Positions 9,796 to 38,261 of a stretch of 38,261 nt of DNA are shown here, in pieces (the first letter of the stretch is position 1; each line of letters begins with the position of its first letter). Under the pieces are notes generated by a model. It was not told where the DNA came from, made no database searches, and was given only the letters and a program-made list of their open reading frames with translations. Both the position numbers and the translations under genes were made by a program. The DNA comes from an uncultured Ignavibacteria bacterium (GTDB taxonomy: Bacteria > Bacteroidota > Ignavibacteria > Ch128b): positions 1-38,261 of the forward strand of contig CALDZP010000034.1 of the NCBI GenBank assembly GCA_937944105.1, in the 5' to 3' direction.

Positions 9796-11033
9796 GTATT
9801 TACCATTTCATTTTTTGGCTTTCTGCTTTTGTAATTTTTTATACTTTCCTGGGTTATCCTTTAATTATTTACTTGATTTTTCGATTTGAATTTTTGAGAT
9901 ATTTTATAAAAATACCTGAAGGATGGGGTAAAATATTTTTAAATCCTGAAATTGCCGGTCCAATGATATTCGACCAAAGACTTCCACAAAAAGAATTTAC
10001 TCCTTTCGTTTCAATGATTATCGCAGCTTATAATGAAGAAAAATTTATAAAAAGAAAAATTGAGAATTGTCTTGAATTGAACTATCCAAAAAATAAAATT
10101 GAATTTTTATTTGTAACAGATGGATCAACTGATAAAACTCCTGAAATCATAAAAATAGAAGCTTCTAAAAATTCGAGTATAAAATTGTTTCATAAACCTG
10201 AACGAGAAGGTAAATTAAAAGCTATTCAAAGAGTAGTTGATTATGCAAAAGGTGAGATACTTGTTTTTTCTGACGCAAATGCAATTTATAACCGTGATGC
10301 TATTTATTATTTAGTAATGCCCTTCCAATTAGAAAAAATAGGTTGTGTTGCTGGAGAAAAAAAGGTTGTTTCAAAAGAAGGAAAAATTGAGGCAGAAGGT
10401 CTTTACTGGAAATATGAATCATTTCTGAAAAAAATTGATTCTGAGATATACTCAATTGTTGGTGCAGCAGGTGAGATTTTTGCAATTAGAAAAGAGCTTT
10501 TCGATAAAATTCCTGAATATACTATTAACGAGGATTTTATTTTGACAATGAATGTTGTGGCGAAAGGTTATAGAGTTTTGTATGAACCTAGAGCATTTGC
10601 TGTTGAGGAACCTACAAAATCAATTTTTGAAGAATTTAAAAGAAGAATTCGAATATCTACTGGTGGAATACAAGCAATATTTATTTTGAAAAAACTTTTT
10701 GATTTTAAAACTTATAAATTTCTTTCATTTCAATTTATTAGTCATAGAATTTTGAGGTGGACTCTCGCACCTATATCCATAATTTTACTTTTTGTTTCTA
10801 ATTTAATTATTGTGATTACTTCAAATAATTCGTTTTACGAATTTACTTTTTACTTACAACTAATTTTTTACTCATTTTCTTTAATTGGTTTAATTGGAGA
10901 GCTGATAGGTGTAAGAATAAAAATATTTTATTTGATTTTTTCATTCCTCTTAATGAATTTTGCTTCAGTTATAGCATTAATAATTTATCCGTTCAAATCC
11001 AGATCAAACATCTGGCAAAAACCTGAAAGGTAA
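9792..11033 (+). CDS. Membrane glycosyltransferase family 2, cellulose-synthase-like
   Basis: A 413-residue glycosyltransferase with an N-terminal membrane segment (about residues 5-30), a GT-A catalytic domain and three or four C-terminal membrane helices (about 315-405). Visible motifs are IIAAYNEE, TDGSTDKT, FSDANA (D161, N163), GAAGEIFAIRKELF and INEDF (E247, D248, the likely catalytic base region). The expected QxxRW is replaced by RRIRI. This layout is shared with chitin and poly-N-acetylglucosamine synthase relatives. It overlaps the sigma-54 activator by four bases, tying the regulator genetically to polysaccharide production. Substrate unknown. Confidence 0.87.
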   Translation: MSIYHFIFWLSAFVIFYTFLGYPLIIYLIFRFEFLRYFIKIPEGWGKIFLNPEIAGPMIFDQRLPQKEFTPFVSMIIAAYNEEKFIKRKIENCLELNYPKNKIEFLFVTDGSTDKTPEIIKIEASKNSSIKLFHKPEREGKLKAIQRVVDYAKGEILVFSDANAIYNRDAIYYLVMPFQLEKIGCVAGEKKVVSKEGKIEAEGLYWKYESFLKKIDSEIYSIVGAAGEIFAIRKELFDKIPEYTINEDFILTMNVVAKGYRVLYEPRAFAVEEPTKSIFEEFKRRIRISTGGIQAIFILKKLFDFKTYKFLSFQFISHRILRWTLAPISIILLFVSNLIIVITSNNSFYEFTFYLQLIFYSFSLIGLIGELIGVRIKIFYLIFSFLLMNFASVIALIIYPFKSRSNIWQKPER

Positions 11034-14832: not shown

Positions 14833-16188
14833 ATGGAATCGCGAATTAAAAAATTAAATCACAAACAGTTTAATAATTCAGGCAAATATGTAGTTTATGT
14901 AATGGAAGCAAGTCAGAGAGCTTATTTTAATCATGCATTGGAATTTGCTATTGCACTATCTAATGAAAAGAAAAAACCCTTAGTTGTGGTTTTCAATCTG
15001 ACTGATAAATTCCGATTTAGTAATCTTCGTTATTACACATTTATGCTGGAAGGACTTGTCAAATTAAAATATCTCTTAAATCAAAGGGGTATTAATTTTG
15101 TCATAAAAAAATCTGACTACATTAGTGGTTCAATTCAAATTGCAAAGGATTCTGTTGTAATCGTAACTGATAGAAATTATCTTAAAACTCAAAGACACTG
15201 GCGGCAAAAAGTTGCAGAGCAAATTGACATCCCTTTGTTCGAAATTGAATCAGATTGCATTATTCCAATTGAATTAGTTTCACAAAAAAAAGAACCCTAT
15301 GCTTCAACTATCAGACCAAAAATATTAAACCTTCTCAATAATTTTTTACAACCTGTTGATCATCAAGAACCAAAAATAAAATCAACCGATCTGGAAATTG
15401 AATCTGTTAATTTTAAATCACATCAAGATCTACTAAATCTTATTAATATTGATACAACTGTAAAACCGGTTTCAGAATTTTATGAAGGTGGATACGATCA
15501 AGCGGAAAAATTTTTAAAGATTTTTATTGAACAAAAGCTTTCTCATTATAAAGAATATAGATCAGATCCTACAAAAGATTACCAATCAGAATTAAGTCCA
15601 TATATTCATTTTGGTCAAATCTCAGTTCTTTATATTGTCCTTGAGATACTAAAGCATTATGATATTAGAGATGAAAATGTTCAATCTTTTATAAATGAAG
15701 CAGTTATATGGCGTGAACTTGCAAGAAATTTTTGTTACTATAATCCAATGTATAATCATTATGAAGGAATTCCCGATTGGGCTAAGCAAACTTTAGAAGA
15801 TCATTTGGGAGATCAAAGAGATTATGTTTATTCTCTTGAAGATTTAGAGTATGCAAAAACACATGATGTTTACTGGAATGCTGCTCAAATTCAATTATTA
15901 AAAACTGGTAAGATGCATAACTATATGAGAATGTACTGGGCTAAAAAATTAATTGAATGGACTTCGCATCCTAAAATAGCTTTCGATTATGCATGCTATC
16001 TGAATGATAAATATGAGTTAGATGGAAGAGACCCTAATGGATACGCTGGAATTTCATGGTGTTTCGGAACCCATGATCGCCCATGGTTTGAAAGGCAGAT
16101 CTTTGGAAAAATTAGATATATGAATGATAAAGGACTTGAACGAAAATTTGACATTAAGGAATACGTAAAAAAATATTCTTCGATATGA
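14833..16188 (+). CDS. phrB: Class II CPD photolyase
   Basis: A DNA photolyase of 451 residues that repairs cyclobutane pyrimidine dimers with blue light and reduced FAD. An N-terminal Rossmann-like antenna domain covers about residues 15-140 (SQRAYFNHALEFAI). The helical FAD domain shows the class II pattern: SELSPYIHFGQIS, WRELARNF, HNYMRMYWAKKLIEW, then LNDKYELDGRDPNGYAGI and FGTHDRPW (about 388-425) and KIRYMNDKGLERKFD. These C-terminal motifs separate it from class I enzymes and cryptochromes. The length is typical. It has its own 110-base upstream gap and seems to be a single gene. The presence of the enzyme implies exposure to light. Confidence 0.93.
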   Translation: MESRIKKLNHKQFNNSGKYVVYVMEASQRAYFNHALEFAIALSNEKKKPLVVVFNLTDKFRFSNLRYYTFMLEGLVKLKYLLNQRGINFVIKKSDYISGSIQIAKDSVVIVTDRNYLKTQRHWRQKVAEQIDIPLFEIESDCIIPIELVSQKKEPYASTIRPKILNLLNNFLQPVDHQEPKIKSTDLEIESVNFKSHQDLLNLINIDTTVKPVSEFYEGGYDQAEKFLKIFIEQKLSHYKEYRSDPTKDYQSELSPYIHFGQISVLYIVLEILKHYDIRDENVQSFINEAVIWRELARNFCYYNPMYNHYEGIPDWAKQTLEDHLGDQRDYVYSLEDLEYAKTHDVYWNAAQIQLLKTGKMHNYMRMYWAKKLIEWTSHPKIAFDYACYLNDKYELDGRDPNGYAGISWCFGTHDRPWFERQIFGKIRYMNDKGLERKFDIKEYVKKYSSI

Positions 16189-18058: not shown

Positions 18059-18721
18059 TTAGTTTTTGATTGCTAATAATTTTTTGCAAAGTTCTACAGC
18101 TTCGATTGCATTTTTTGCATAACCATTGGCACCAATTTCATCTGCAAAGCTCTGGGATACAGGAGCACCACCAACTATTATTATTTTGTTTTGAAATTTT
18201 TCTTTTAATGCCTGCACAGTTTTTTGCATTGAAATCATGGTTGTTGTAAGCATGGCAGAGAGTCCAACAATATCAGGACATTCCTTATCCACTGCGTCAA
18301 TAAATTTTTCAGTTGATGTGTCAACTCCAATATCAACAACATTAAAACCATTCCCTTTCAGCATTATACCGACTAAATTTTTGCCGATGTCATGAATGTC
18401 ACCTTTTACCGTTCCCAAGAGTACTTTACCAATTCCAGACTTATTCGATTTCGTATCTTTTATTAATAAAGGTTCGATTATGTTCATTGCGGCTTTAAAT
18501 GCTCTGGCGGACATTAAAACTTCTGGTAAAAATATTAGACCATCACGAAATTTTATACCTACGATTTCCATCCCTTTAAGTAATCCAGAATTTAAAATCT
18601 CATCTGATGATAGATCATTGTCTAAAGCTTTCTGGGTTATTTCAACAATTAATTTATAGTTACCAGTGATTATTAATTCAGAAATTTGATCTAATATTTC
18701 CGATTTGGATTTATCCATCAT
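18059..18721 (-). CDS. Corrinoid (B12-binding) methyltransferase protein
   Basis: A 220-residue cobalamin carrier of the MtaC/MtbC and MetH-B12 family. A helical cap covers about residues 5-90 (methyl-binding cap). A Rossmann-like B12 domain follows, with the signature GDIHDIGKN (cobalt-ligand H110), DIGVDTS, SAMLTT and the loop VGGAPVS. It would shuttle a methyl group on cobalamin. The ATG at 18721 overlaps the end of the upstream homocysteine methyltransferase gene by 11 bases, so the pair is coupled. An ATG at 18718 is equally possible. No reactivation (AdoMet-binding) domain is fused. Confidence 0.88.
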   Translation of the reverse strand: MMDKSKSEILDQISELIITGNYKLIVEITQKALDNDLSSDEILNSGLLKGMEIVGIKFRDGLIFLPEVLMSARAFKAAMNIIEPLLIKDTKSNKSGIGKVLLGTVKGDIHDIGKNLVGIMLKGNGFNVVDIGVDTSTEKFIDAVDKECPDIVGLSAMLTTTMISMQKTVQALKEKFQNKIIIVGGAPVSQSFADEIGANGYAKNAIEAVELCKKLLAIKN

Positions 18722-19583
18722 AATTAATTTTATTTGCAATTTTTTTTATTATTCTTATGTGTTCAGGATTTGTACCGCAACAACCTCCCATTATTTTCAC
18801 ACAATTATTGAAAAATTTTTCGATTAAAGGTTCAATAAGATCTGGTGTTTCAGGATAAATAATATTTCCATCTTTTAGTTCAGGAATTCCAGCATTGGGT
18901 TTGGCAATCAAAGGTAGTTTAGTGAGTTCTCTCATTTCACATACTATTTCTAACGATTGTTTAAATCCTTCGCCACAATTAGTTCCAACTGCGTGTATAT
19001 CCCATGAGGTTGCTCGATTAATGAAATCAATAATGCTTTCACCCATTATTGTAAAATAACCTCTTGTTGTTTTTTGAAAGGTAACTGTAACAGAAATTGG
19101 TAATTTATTTACTGACCTTACGGCTTTAAAAATAATTTCGGCTTCGTCGAGCGATTGGACGGTTTCAATGTTGATGAAATCAACTTCCGAAAGTCCTTTT
19201 GCCTGTTCTACAAATGATTGGAAAGCTTCTTCTTTAGTTATTTCTCCATACGGTTCCATCAATTCACCAAGAGGACCAATTGAACCTGCAACTATTTTTC
19301 CTCCAGCTGCGTTTCTTGCAATTTCTACAGCTCTGGCATTAATTTCATATGTTTTGTTTTCCAAATTGAATCTTTTTAATCGTAAATAATTAGCGCCAAA
19401 TGTATTTGTCTGAATAATATCCGAACCAGCTTTTATATATTCTTGATGAACTTTTAAGACAACATCAGGTTGGGATAGGTTCAATTCATCGGGGCAATTA
19501 AAATTACCACAGGCTAAGTTTTGTAGCATTGTCCCCATTGCTCCATCGAAAACCCATACTTTTTGTTTATTGAGAAAATGCAT
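18711..19583 (-). CDS. Homocysteine S-methyltransferase, MetH N-terminal module
   Basis: A 290-residue zinc-dependent homocysteine methyltransferase with the Hcy-binding barrel only. VFDGAMGTMLQ is the N-terminal family signature, and ETVQSLDEAE follows in the middle. The three zinc ligands are C203 (GTNCGEG) and C268/C269 (GGCCGTNPEH). With the corrinoid protein encoded just downstream it reproduces the first and third modules of cobalamin-dependent methionine synthase. The methyltetrahydrofolate-binding module and the reactivation domain are not in the window. ATG at 19583 is chosen over an in-frame TTG at 19595. The product would be methionine. Confidence 0.88.
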   Translation of the reverse strand: MHFLNKQKVWVFDGAMGTMLQNLACGNFNCPDELNLSQPDVVLKVHQEYIKAGSDIIQTNTFGANYLRLKRFNLENKTYEINARAVEIARNAAGGKIVAGSIGPLGELMEPYGEITKEEAFQSFVEQAKGLSEVDFINIETVQSLDEAEIIFKAVRSVNKLPISVTVTFQKTTRGYFTIMGESIIDFINRATSWDIHAVGTNCGEGFKQSLEIVCEMRELTKLPLIAKPNAGIPELKDGNIIYPETPDLIEPLIEKFFNNCVKIMGGCCGTNPEHIRIIKKIANKINYDG

Positions 19584-19712
19584 ACTTACTGTCAAACTTT
19601 TATTAAATTGAGCGGTTTTTATTAATTAAAATCTTAAAGAGAAAAACTTAAAAATTTTATCTAAAACCTAATCTTTGTTCCAATTAATTGTCAATCAAAG
19701 ATTTTTTTAGAG

Positions 19713-34994: not shown

Positions 34995-35026
34995 GCATGG
35001 TTCACGAATCAATTCGTAAACCATGC
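34995..35026. terminator. Shared terminator hairpin between convergent genes
   Basis: GCATGGTTCACGAAT (34995-35009) pairs with ATTCGTAAACCATGC (35012-35026), 15 base pairs with one mismatch and a two-base loop. It lies exactly between the ABC exporter stop (34987) and the stop of the convergent lipoprotein gene (35057), so it can serve both directions. A T-rich stretch follows on the plus strand but no long T-run. Confidence 0.6.
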
Positions 35027-35056: not shown

Positions 35057-36106
35057 TTATCGGTAGAAATAAATTGCCCCAGGATTAATCTTTGTCTCAA
35101 ATTTTTTAATGAAATTTCCATCTCGATCGTAGATCTTCACTTCACCATTTTGAGTAAAATTCTTTGGATTTCCAATGTAAAGTTTTTGATTAATTTCATC
35201 GAATGCTATTGAATAAGCAATACCATATATATCATTAATAGCCATTCCATCAATAAAAACTGTATCTACATTTTTTGTATTCAAATTAATTTTACCTATA
35301 CCTTTATCGTTTATGTAGTACAAAATATTATCTTTTGCTAAAGCTAAATCCTGTGGGTGATAACTTAAAATAATTGAATCAGTAATCGTTAGATTTACAG
35401 GATTTATAAAATAATAACCTCCTAATTTTGAAAGATTAAACCAATCTCCAGAACATCCAATAATTATTCTACCATCGTTTGATAAGTTAACAAACCTCGG
35501 GTTAGTTCCCACAGTAATTGTTTTAATTACTGAGTTGGAATTAAGATCTATGACAGAAACGGTATTCCCATTTCCTAAATCTGAGTTTGCAACAAATAAT
35601 TTATTGTTGGCATAAGCTAATCCTTCAGGATAATTCCCAACTGGAATCTCCCGAATAACACTTAAAGTAGAAGGGTTAAATTCAATTACTTTATTTTTAC
35701 TGAAGCTTGTAACAAATCCACGATTAGAATTGAGAATAAAAATTTCTCGGGGACTTCCATTCTGCCCAAGATCAATTATTCCAAGTGACTGACCATTTTC
35801 CAGATCAATAACCTCTATTTTATTGCTACCGTCAACAGCTACAAAACCTTTTTTATCGAAAATGTACATACTATTTGCATTATCACCGATTATCTTCCCA
35901 TTTTTTGATGAATAGAAGTTAGTTATTGTCTGATCGGTTGAAGGATCATAAAATGTAATTTCACTATTATTTTGTTGATACAATCCCTCGTTTATAACAA
36001 ATACACCTTTTGTTACTGGTTGAATGGGTTGAGTAGAATTATCTTTTGAGCACGAATAAAATAAAACAGATAGAACGAAAATGATTATCAGATTTTTTGC
36101 TTTCAT
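35057..36106 (-). CDS. BtuG-like surface beta-propeller lipoprotein
   Basis: A 349-residue lipoprotein with signal ending VLFYSC (lipidated C19). The residues after the cysteine are SKDNS; a lysine followed by an acidic residue is like the surface-export signal of Bacteroidota lipoproteins. The body is a beta-propeller of the YncE/DUF5074 kind, with repeated blades such as KIEVIDLENGQSLGIIDLG, KVIEFNPSTLSVIREIPVG and VSVIDLNSNSVIKTITVG. The gene follows the TonB receptor: its ATG begins at the base after the receptor's TAA, and a strong GGAGGT site lies inside the end of the receptor gene. In gut Bacteroides the matching pair is BtuB-BtuG, where BtuG captures cobalamin at the surface and passes it to the receptor. 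That role is inferred here, helped by the cobalamin riboswitch. Confidence 0.72.
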   Translation of the reverse strand: MKAKNLIIIFVLSVLFYSCSKDNSTQPIQPVTKGVFVINEGLYQQNNSEITFYDPSTDQTITNFYSSKNGKIIGDNANSMYIFDKKGFVAVDGSNKIEVIDLENGQSLGIIDLGQNGSPREIFILNSNRGFVTSFSKNKVIEFNPSTLSVIREIPVGNYPEGLAYANNKLFVANSDLGNGNTVSVIDLNSNSVIKTITVGTNPRFVNLSNDGRIIIGCSGDWFNLSKLGGYYFINPVNLTITDSIILSYHPQDLALAKDNILYYINDKGIGKINLNTKNVDTVFIDGMAINDIYGIAYSIAFDEINQKLYIGNPKNFTQNGEVKIYDRDGNFIKKFETKINPGAIYFYR

Positions 36107-38119
36107 TTATACCTCCATTTGAATAGTTAAACGATATTCCCTTCCCGGCATTGGAAAGGACTGAATTAATTGATACGATTGATTAAAAAGATTTTGTATT
36201 GTAATCTGTGAAATAAATTTTAGTTGATAGATTTCGAAATTAGATGTAATTGAAAGATTTGAAATTGTTACAGGATTCAAAGAGAATAAAATGTCATTAT
36301 CTTCTGTGAAGTACCTTCTACTATAAAAATTAGAAAGAAAATCAACTTCAGCAAATTTTAAATCACAAAAGATTAAAATAGATGCTTTATGTTCTGGAAC
36401 ATATGGAATTTGTTTGTGATATGACTTATCGTCGGGACTTAAACGAGTATTCTTGATTGCTTTTGTATAAGTATAATTACCGCTTAGAGATATAAGTTTA
36501 TTCAATTTAATATTTTCGATATTGAACTCGACACCAGTAGATTTTGTATTTCCAAAATTTACTGGACTAAAGAATGCAACTCTTTGAGGTTTCCATATAA
36601 TTTTATTTTTTACATTAAATGTGAAATAGGTTATTTCAACAAGATAGCTCTCTTTTTCAAAACGAATACCAGCTTCATAATTAAAAATTTTTTCTGGTTC
36701 TAGTTTTCGGTTGCTAAGGGATGTTAATCGTGCTAAGGAATATTCATAAAAGTTTGGTATTCTGATTCCTGATCCAGCATTAAAGAAAGAAATTAGACAT
36801 AAGGAATTTGATTTGAATGAAACGCCCATCCTCCAATTTGGAAATTGATAATATTCAATTCCCGATTGATATTTATTCGAGACATAATTATATGAGAATA
36901 AAAAGGCTGAATTAATTTTTAAATCCTGGTTAAGATTTAAAGTTTGACTTGATCTGAAATTTGAACTAATTGTGGTTCTGTTTAAGTCTTCAATATATGA
37001 ATTAGAATTCTTTTTTGTCTCGGACTTTTGAAAATTTTCCATGCTCAAAGAGAATCCACCAGTTAATAAGAAAGCTCTGTTATCAATATTCATAAAAATT
37101 TTTGTATTGAATGAATTATTGTATAAATCAAAACGATTGGTTTGGAGGTTAATGGAAAGCATAGGGTCATTGATAGTTAATCGATTCTGTTGTAATCCAA
37201 ATATCCCATTTACATAACTATTGTTTGAAATAAAAATTTTTGAATTAAGCGAATAAGAAAAATCTCTTTCTTTTTGCCGTGTTCCACTATCGTAATGACG
37301 ATTTGCAGAAACAAAATTTGGTAGTCCCAGTTCTTTATCAAGAAAATTGAAAAATGAATAAAAACGCACCGGTTCATTGAAAATTTTGAATTGATTTATA
37401 AATGCTAACTGTAATGAATTTTGATTGACATCAGCATTTTTTCTTATGGCACTTTCGTCATTAAAAGTATATTCATAATTATTTTTCGCCGATTTATGAG
37501 AGAAGTAAATCTTATAGTAAGTATTAACAATAGAACCACTTTGTTTTAATTGAATTCCTTGATAGCCAAAGCTACCAATTTGAAATTTCATCAAACCCTT
37601 TGTTGTATCATTTTTTTCGAATGGATTAAGTATGATTACACCACCAAATGAGTTATTATTAAAAGGTTCGAAGTCATTTCCTTTTTTAACAATTATTTCG
37701 GAAACTTCATCCGCTGAAAATTTACTGAAATCAAATATTCCATTAAGTGAATTGTTATAATTTATACCGTTGATAAAAACAGATGTATATTCCGAACCAG
37801 AACCTCTAATTGAAATAGTTTGAAGACTCCCTTCACTCCCGTAAGATTTTGTAAAGATACCTGGCTTTGATACGAGTAAGTTTCCTATTGAAACGGATGA
37901 TAGTTGTTCTTTAAGAGAAAATCTTTTTGTAAACCCACTTGAATATTTATCAAAAATATCTGTTCGATCTGAAACAATAATTTCGGATGTTACAAAAGTC
38001 TTAACTGAATCATTCGAAGCTAATATAGAATCCTTTTTAGAGTACGAAAATACATCAGCTGAAAAAAGATTAATTGCAATGATATTTAAGAGAAATATTA
38101 TCAAATAAAACAATCTCAT
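36107..38119 (-). CDS. btuB: BtuB-like TonB-dependent outer-membrane receptor
   Basis: A 670-residue outer-membrane receptor with signal peptide (residues 1-21, ending NLFSA). A TonB-box-like stretch lies near residue 45 (TSEIIVSDR). The plug domain covers about 60-165, with ISIRGSGSEYTSVFINGI and GNDFEPFNNNSFGGVIILN. A C-terminal 22-strand barrel of alternating aromatic strands ends in YRLTIQMEV. The cobalamin riboswitch directly upstream points to vitamin B12 as ligand. The final residue is valine, not the usual phenylalanine. The start at 38119 lies about 25 bases past the riboswitch terminator, and no strong ribosome-binding site is seen. Confidence 0.88.
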   Translation of the reverse strand: MRLFYLIIFLLNIIAINLFSADVFSYSKKDSILASNDSVKTFVTSEIIVSDRTDIFDKYSSGFTKRFSLKEQLSSVSIGNLLVSKPGIFTKSYGSEGSLQTISIRGSGSEYTSVFINGINYNNSLNGIFDFSKFSADEVSEIIVKKGNDFEPFNNNSFGGVIILNPFEKNDTTKGLMKFQIGSFGYQGIQLKQSGSIVNTYYKIYFSHKSAKNNYEYTFNDESAIRKNADVNQNSLQLAFINQFKIFNEPVRFYSFFNFLDKELGLPNFVSANRHYDSGTRQKERDFSYSLNSKIFISNNSYVNGIFGLQQNRLTINDPMLSINLQTNRFDLYNNSFNTKIFMNIDNRAFLLTGGFSLSMENFQKSETKKNSNSYIEDLNRTTISSNFRSSQTLNLNQDLKINSAFLFSYNYVSNKYQSGIEYYQFPNWRMGVSFKSNSLCLISFFNAGSGIRIPNFYEYSLARLTSLSNRKLEPEKIFNYEAGIRFEKESYLVEITYFTFNVKNKIIWKPQRVAFFSPVNFGNTKSTGVEFNIENIKLNKLISLSGNYTYTKAIKNTRLSPDDKSYHKQIPYVPEHKASILIFCDLKFAEVDFLSNFYSRRYFTEDNDILFSLNPVTISNLSITSNFEIYQLKFISQITIQNLFNQSYQLIQSFPMPGREYRLTIQMEV

Positions 38120-38143
38120 ATCTTTCTTTTTAAGTTATTTTTT

Positions 38144-38176
38144 AAAACAAAAAACCTCTTCGAGTGAAGAGGTTTT
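38144..38176 (-). terminator. Riboswitch expression-platform terminator
   Basis: On the minus strand AAAACCTCTTC pairs with GAAGAGGTTTT (plus 38166-38176 and 38151-38161) over 11 base pairs with a four-base loop, and a T-rich tail follows (plus 38144-38150). It sits between the cobalamin-binding part and the receptor start, where premature termination would switch the operon off when cobalamin is bound. Confidence 0.8.
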
Positions 38177-38261
38177 AAAAACTCATTAGAGTTTCTGAAA
38201 CCTTCCTTTCCCTCGAAGGAAAAAGTTTCGAGCTTTACTGGCAGGTCTCCTGACTTGTGCA
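38177..38261 (-). promoter_or_regulatory. Cobalamin riboswitch, 3' part (truncated by window edge)
   Basis: Reading the minus strand from the window edge, the leader contains GTCAGGAGACCTGCC (plus 38240-38254), the conserved 3'-end block of the cobalamin riboswitch family (the E. coli btuB leader has a very similar block ending GAAGACCTGCC). The rest of the aptamer lies beyond the window. Between this block and the terminator are two alternative pairings described in the findings. Direction and position fit control of the receptor and lipoprotein genes. Confidence 0.85.

Follow-up and report, generated by a model that had tools for sequence, protein, structure and literature searches.

A predicted riboswitch-controlled BtuB-BtuG operon for vitamin B12 uptake in an Ignavibacteria genome

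Genes and regulatory elements of the locus

The btuB-btuG operon, encoded on the minus strand, occupies the right end of the window (the whole 38,261-nucleotide stretch of DNA that was analyzed) in an Ignavibacteria MAG with a genome of 2.74 Mb, and runs in the order riboswitch, receptor gene, lipoprotein gene (Table 1). The original prediction, based on the letters of this stretch, had described a conserved aptamer block, a terminator, a TonB receptor and a lipoprotein gene whose ATG directly follows the TAA of the receptor gene, with GGAGGT inside the latter. All of these elements were recovered; the ATG (36104–36106) abuts the TAA (36107–36109). The same gene order, with the riboswitch in front and gaps of 1 and −4 nt between receptor and lipoprotein gene, is kept in two congeneric genomes. 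No BtuC, BtuD or BtuF was found within the operon, and a hairpin beyond btuG is probably the operon terminator.

Table 1. Features of the btuB-btuG operon (positions in the window unless stated otherwise)
Feature	Position	Strand	Basis or remark
Cobalamin riboswitch aptamer, 3' end in window	38223–38261 (full: 38223–38403 on contig)	−	RF00174
Predicted antiterminator hairpin, outer stem CTTCGAG...CTCGAAG	38158–38218	−	Fold of post-aptamer leader, −32.0 kcal/mol
Intrinsic terminator hairpin and T tract	38151–38176	−	Scan; same sequence element in congeners
btuB-like TonB-dependent outer-membrane receptor gene, 670 aa	36107–38119	−	Pfam Plug and barrel
EL8-equivalent extracellular loop, residues ~508–523, IWKPQRVAFFSPVNFG	36551–36598	−	Alignment to BtuB3; aromatic F517
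GGAGGT, predicted ribosome binding site for btuG	36111–36116	−	Sequence; inside btuB gene
btuG-like seven-bladed beta-propeller lipoprotein gene, 349 aa	35057–36106	−	DUF5074, BtuG similarity, AlphaFold/Foldseek
Lipoprotein signal peptide, lipobox FYSC (Cys19), then SKDN	36050–36106	−	Sequence
BtuG ligand loop, residues 39–49 NEGLYQQNNSE (BtuG2 Asn54–Thr64)	35960–35992	−	Alignment to BtuG2
Strong hairpin, 14-pair stem (probable operon terminator)	34995–35026	−	Scan; between convergent btuG and ABC-exporter genes

An Rfam search of the window alone gave no riboswitch match, because the aptamer is cut by the window end and only 39 nt of it are present. Extended along the contig, the aptamer is complete (model positions 1–189 of 189; 119.6 bits against an RF00174 gathering score of 31.5 bits), and it is the single RF00174 match in the whole genome. 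The terminator hairpin follows ~50 nt past the aptamer, in a scanned region that held five terminator-like sites versus 1.4 expected. In the predicted fold of the leader, a CTTCGAG close to the aptamer forms base pairs with a CTCGAAG that belongs to the terminator, so that the overlapping terminator and antiterminator are mutually exclusive. Two congeners have the same alternative pair of hairpins (antiterminators of −29.1 and −28.8 kcal/mol), with a changed inner stem sequence. The leader thus fits a transcription-terminating OFF switch, a direction suggested by these folds.

A Bacteroidetes-type promoter (TTTG-N21-TAAnTTTG) is located 15 nt before the aptamer, beyond the window (contig C34 ~38411–38443; L002 ~10411–10443), and its boxes (−7 TAnnTTTG, with TTTG 21 nt farther up) are kept in all three congeners. 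Near the aptamer, TAnnTTTG was present in 7/30 relatives, versus 1.6% of random 45-nt stretches, while a scan for sigma-70 consensus promoters showed no excess (18 found versus 19.8 expected).

Similarity of the two proteins to BtuB and BtuG

The best PDB sequence matches of the receptor are BtuB1, BtuB2 and BtuB3 of the BtuBG complexes (E ~5e-27), whereas E. coli BtuB is a much weaker match (1e-5). The ranking by fold is similar: with the AlphaFold model (pLDDT 86), the top six Foldseek matches are Bacteroides BtuB1/2/3 chains, followed by E. coli BtuB. The receptor is therefore nearer to Bacteroides BtuB than to E. coli BtuB by both sequence and fold, which supports the BtuB identity assigned to it at the outset. 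Its score against the NCBIfam equivalog for BtuB (TIGR01779; 54.2 bits) is far below the curated cut-off of 599.7 bits, hence it is not filed under that family. Extracellular loop EL8 aligns without gaps (BtuB3 WLPTSKGFYSPVN versus WKPQRVAFFSPVN in the window receptor), F516-F517 occupy the place of BtuB3 F537-Y538, and the aromatic position of the loop is W or F in 34/40 sequences. In Bacteroides, EL8 is believed to displace B12 from BtuG, and growth on the vitamin depends on the tip of this loop (PMC10404256).

The lipoprotein matches Pfam DUF5074 (PF16819; 66.2 bits, cut-off 27.2), and among solved sequences it is nearest to BtuG1 (E 1.3e-24), BtuG3 and BtuG2. Its AlphaFold model, built from an alignment of 61 window and locus sequences, has a mean pLDDT of 95 and 28 strands, as fits seven four-stranded blades. 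The 16 best Foldseek matches in the PDB are all BtuG chains (E 1e-22 to 1e-27, TM 0.81–0.83), and the first match to another protein follows at E 3e-16 and TM 0.69. Cys19 of the lipobox is conserved in at least 90% of the 61 homologs, a lipobox-like Cys occurs in 73/77 sequences, and the SKDN behind it resembles the signal for lipoprotein export in Bacteroidetes that has been described for BtuG (PMC6143338). From these signals, the lipoprotein is predicted to be surface-exposed.

In BtuG2, the loop Asn54–Thr64 holds the vitamin together with loop beta-5A (PMC10404256). The equivalent loop of the window protein is strongly conserved among the 61 homologs (N39 in 60, E40 in 56, G41 in all 61 and N47 in 58), and BtuG2 Tyr316 corresponds to Y298, kept in 58/61. 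Other positions differ: Trp194 is replaced by Ser175 (Ser also in BtuG1 and in 51/61), Tyr335 by Phe317, and Trp272 probably by His250, in an alignment column that is uncertain because of gaps, while the loop bearing Tyr239 is shorter. The pocket is therefore not identical to that of BtuG2, in a comparison that covers part of the contacts behind the 13 hydrogen bonds between BtuG2 and cobalamin. The predicted site is conserved in outline, and at Trp194 it resembles BtuG1 more than BtuG2. The BtuG-like propeller proposed by the original prediction thus agrees with BtuG in its predicted fold, in the number of strands and over most of the ligand loop, but departs from BtuG2 at some pocket residues.

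Distribution among relatives

Among 61 genomes of the same class, 56 had an RF00174 match and 49 a BtuG match, the weakest of which may be other propellers. A receptor of the btuB type directly adjoined btuG in 59 of 80 named genome loci (upstream in 58), and several of the loci with no adjoining receptor are cut contigs. RF00174 was located upstream in 29/34 scanned loci, seven Calditrichota included. The riboswitch-btuB-btuG unit thereby recurs in Ignavibacteria, Kryptonia, Calditrichota and Bacteroidota. The window protein clusters with Ignavibacteriota (99) in a quick, unrooted tree, which also unites the Calditrichota in a single group (97). GTDB may count Ignavibacteria among the Bacteroidota, but it does not count Calditrichota among them.

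Several loci vary in arrangement. Two Thermochlorobacter loci (L103 and L124, Chlorobiota) have the riboswitch immediately ahead of btuG, with no btuB-type receptor gene adjacent, while one from an uncultured Ignavibacteriae (L093) has two tandem cobalamin riboswitches (772–956 and 1618–1798) upstream of btuB-btuG. In two Kryptonia loci (L081 and L084), only a few bases separate the cobalamin riboswitch from the end of a tRNA gene in front of it. The gene pair also occurs in MAGs named Ectothiorhodospiraceae and Verrucomicrobia (L090 and L116); each pairs with a Bacteroidota-labeled sequence in the tree, which makes misnamed bins likelier than transfer. A long open frame in L044 was considered as a BtuB-BtuG fusion and rejected, as its matches to BtuB and to BtuG are not in the same reading frame.

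Wexler et al. (2018) described BtuG as exclusive to Bacteroidetes, based on 313 human gut genomes (PMC6143338). A full-text literature search, with subscription papers outside its range, returned no paper naming BtuG together with Ignavibacteria. The predicted B12-riboswitch operon of Caldithrix abyssi (PMC5317091) is similar in having a riboswitch upstream of a btuB-like gene outside Bacteroidetes. The part of that paper describing the operon names BtuB and BtuF and does not mention BtuG, whereas other Calditrichota carry a btuG homolog behind the riboswitch.

Proposed cobamide capture and its wider meaning

A probable consumer of the vitamin is encoded in the same window. Separate genes for a homocysteine S-methyltransferase and a B12-binding protein (cap and cobalamin domains) at 18059–19595 on the minus strand probably encode a split methionine synthase, which would likely use imported B12. 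The rest of the B12 pathway was sampled in the genome by four families, which gave one FecCD permease and two Peripla_BP_2 proteins elsewhere, and several B12-binding proteins, the probable split synthase among them. CbiC had no match in the genome; on this single marker, de novo B12 synthesis is probably absent and the host is probably a B12 auxotroph. The original prediction had also taken the host for a seemingly free-living, light-exposed relative of gut Bacteroides. The only hint of light exposure is a photolyase-family gene (14833–16188, where only PF00875 matches), situated beside polysaccharide genes.

Taken together, we consider the locus to be a two-gene cobamide scavenging operon, with a probability of roughly 0.9. 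It is very likely a vitamin B12 uptake operon of a kind so far demonstrated in gut Bacteroides only. At low cellular cobalamin, the leader would form the antiterminator and btuB-btuG would be transcribed, whereas cobalamin bound to the aptamer would let the terminator form. BtuG would be exported as a surface lipoprotein and act as a hinged lid over the BtuB barrel, capturing cobamides in the central hole of its propeller before the lid closes. Loop EL8 of BtuB would then push the vitamin off BtuG and into BtuB, from which TonB energy would move it to the periplasm. Homology, folds and gene linkage favor the capture pair envisaged by the original prediction. That the two proteins bind and capture B12, form a complex, move as a lid and barrel and pass the vitamin on is inferred from B. 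thetaiotaomicron.

The locus resembles BtuB1G1, BtuB2G2 and BtuB3G3 of B. thetaiotaomicron (PMC10404256, PMC6143338) in its riboswitch-linked btuB beside btuG, its lipobox and export-like signal, the seven-bladed propeller, the ligand loop and the aromatic residue of EL8. Unlike those systems, the window proteins stand at ~20–25% identity, the lipoprotein does not have the extra C-terminal domain of BtuG1, and the host has only one such locus, in which BtuH, BtuFCD and other lipoproteins are missing. A TonB-dependent cobalamin receptor and cobalamin riboswitch control are shared with E. coli BtuB, but E. coli, unlike the window operon, has no BtuG (PMC6143338).

Other explanations would change the role of one or both proteins. 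The receptor could be a B12 transporter with which a generic YVTN/YncE-type surface propeller merely travels along, without forming a capture lid. YVTN and PQQ-type propeller models also match the lipoprotein, as does an archaeal S-layer propeller (1l0q) by sequence (E 1.8e-17), and several BtuG2 pocket residues differ. Nonetheless, a generic YVTN identity was rejected on the fold ranking, in which the generic match lies ten orders of magnitude below the best of the BtuG chains. The loop with which BtuG2 holds B12 is, moreover, among the most conserved parts of the protein, and its gene stays linked to btuB and the riboswitch across several phyla, making a mere passenger propeller very improbable. 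Less probable still, and in our estimate highly improbable, is that the pair imports another ligand under cobalamin control, for example, a cobalt chelate or another tetrapyrrole. Cobalamin riboswitches control cobalt and other transporters too, and the receptor has diverged from E. coli BtuB, but among solved structures the two proteins are most closely related to the cobalamin-binding BtuB and BtuG, the genome has B12-binding enzymes, and a host without CbiC would have little use for cobalt in de novo synthesis.

A further alternative concerns regulation only and is compatible with the B12 uptake reading of the proteins, namely that the riboswitch is translational or non-working and the terminator a leftover. 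Both the direction and the mechanism of the switch are predicted by folding only, but the terminator and its competing antiterminator are kept in three congeneric genomes despite the inner-stem change, and we regard this alternative as improbable, if less so than the two above.

With known parts found well outside gut Bacteroidetes, the predicted B12 uptake operon is a well-supported and useful extension of a known system. The origin of BtuG has earlier been discussed as a matter of competition in the gut. The occurrence of the riboswitch-btuB-btuG unit in Calditrichota, in Kryptonia and as the sole cobalamin-riboswitch locus of this Ignavibacteria genome suggests that its role in vitamin scavenging is older and more general. 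We lean toward the view that the lid-type BtuB-BtuG system is old and general in Bacteroidota, Ignavibacteria, Kryptonia and Calditrichota and mostly vertically inherited, that environmental lineages carry its minimal single-locus form, and that Bacteroidetes are not alone in having lipoprotein-capped TonB transporters. If so, the system did not evolve for gut competition. These relatives also offer minimal and thermophilic versions of BtuB-BtuG for structural work.
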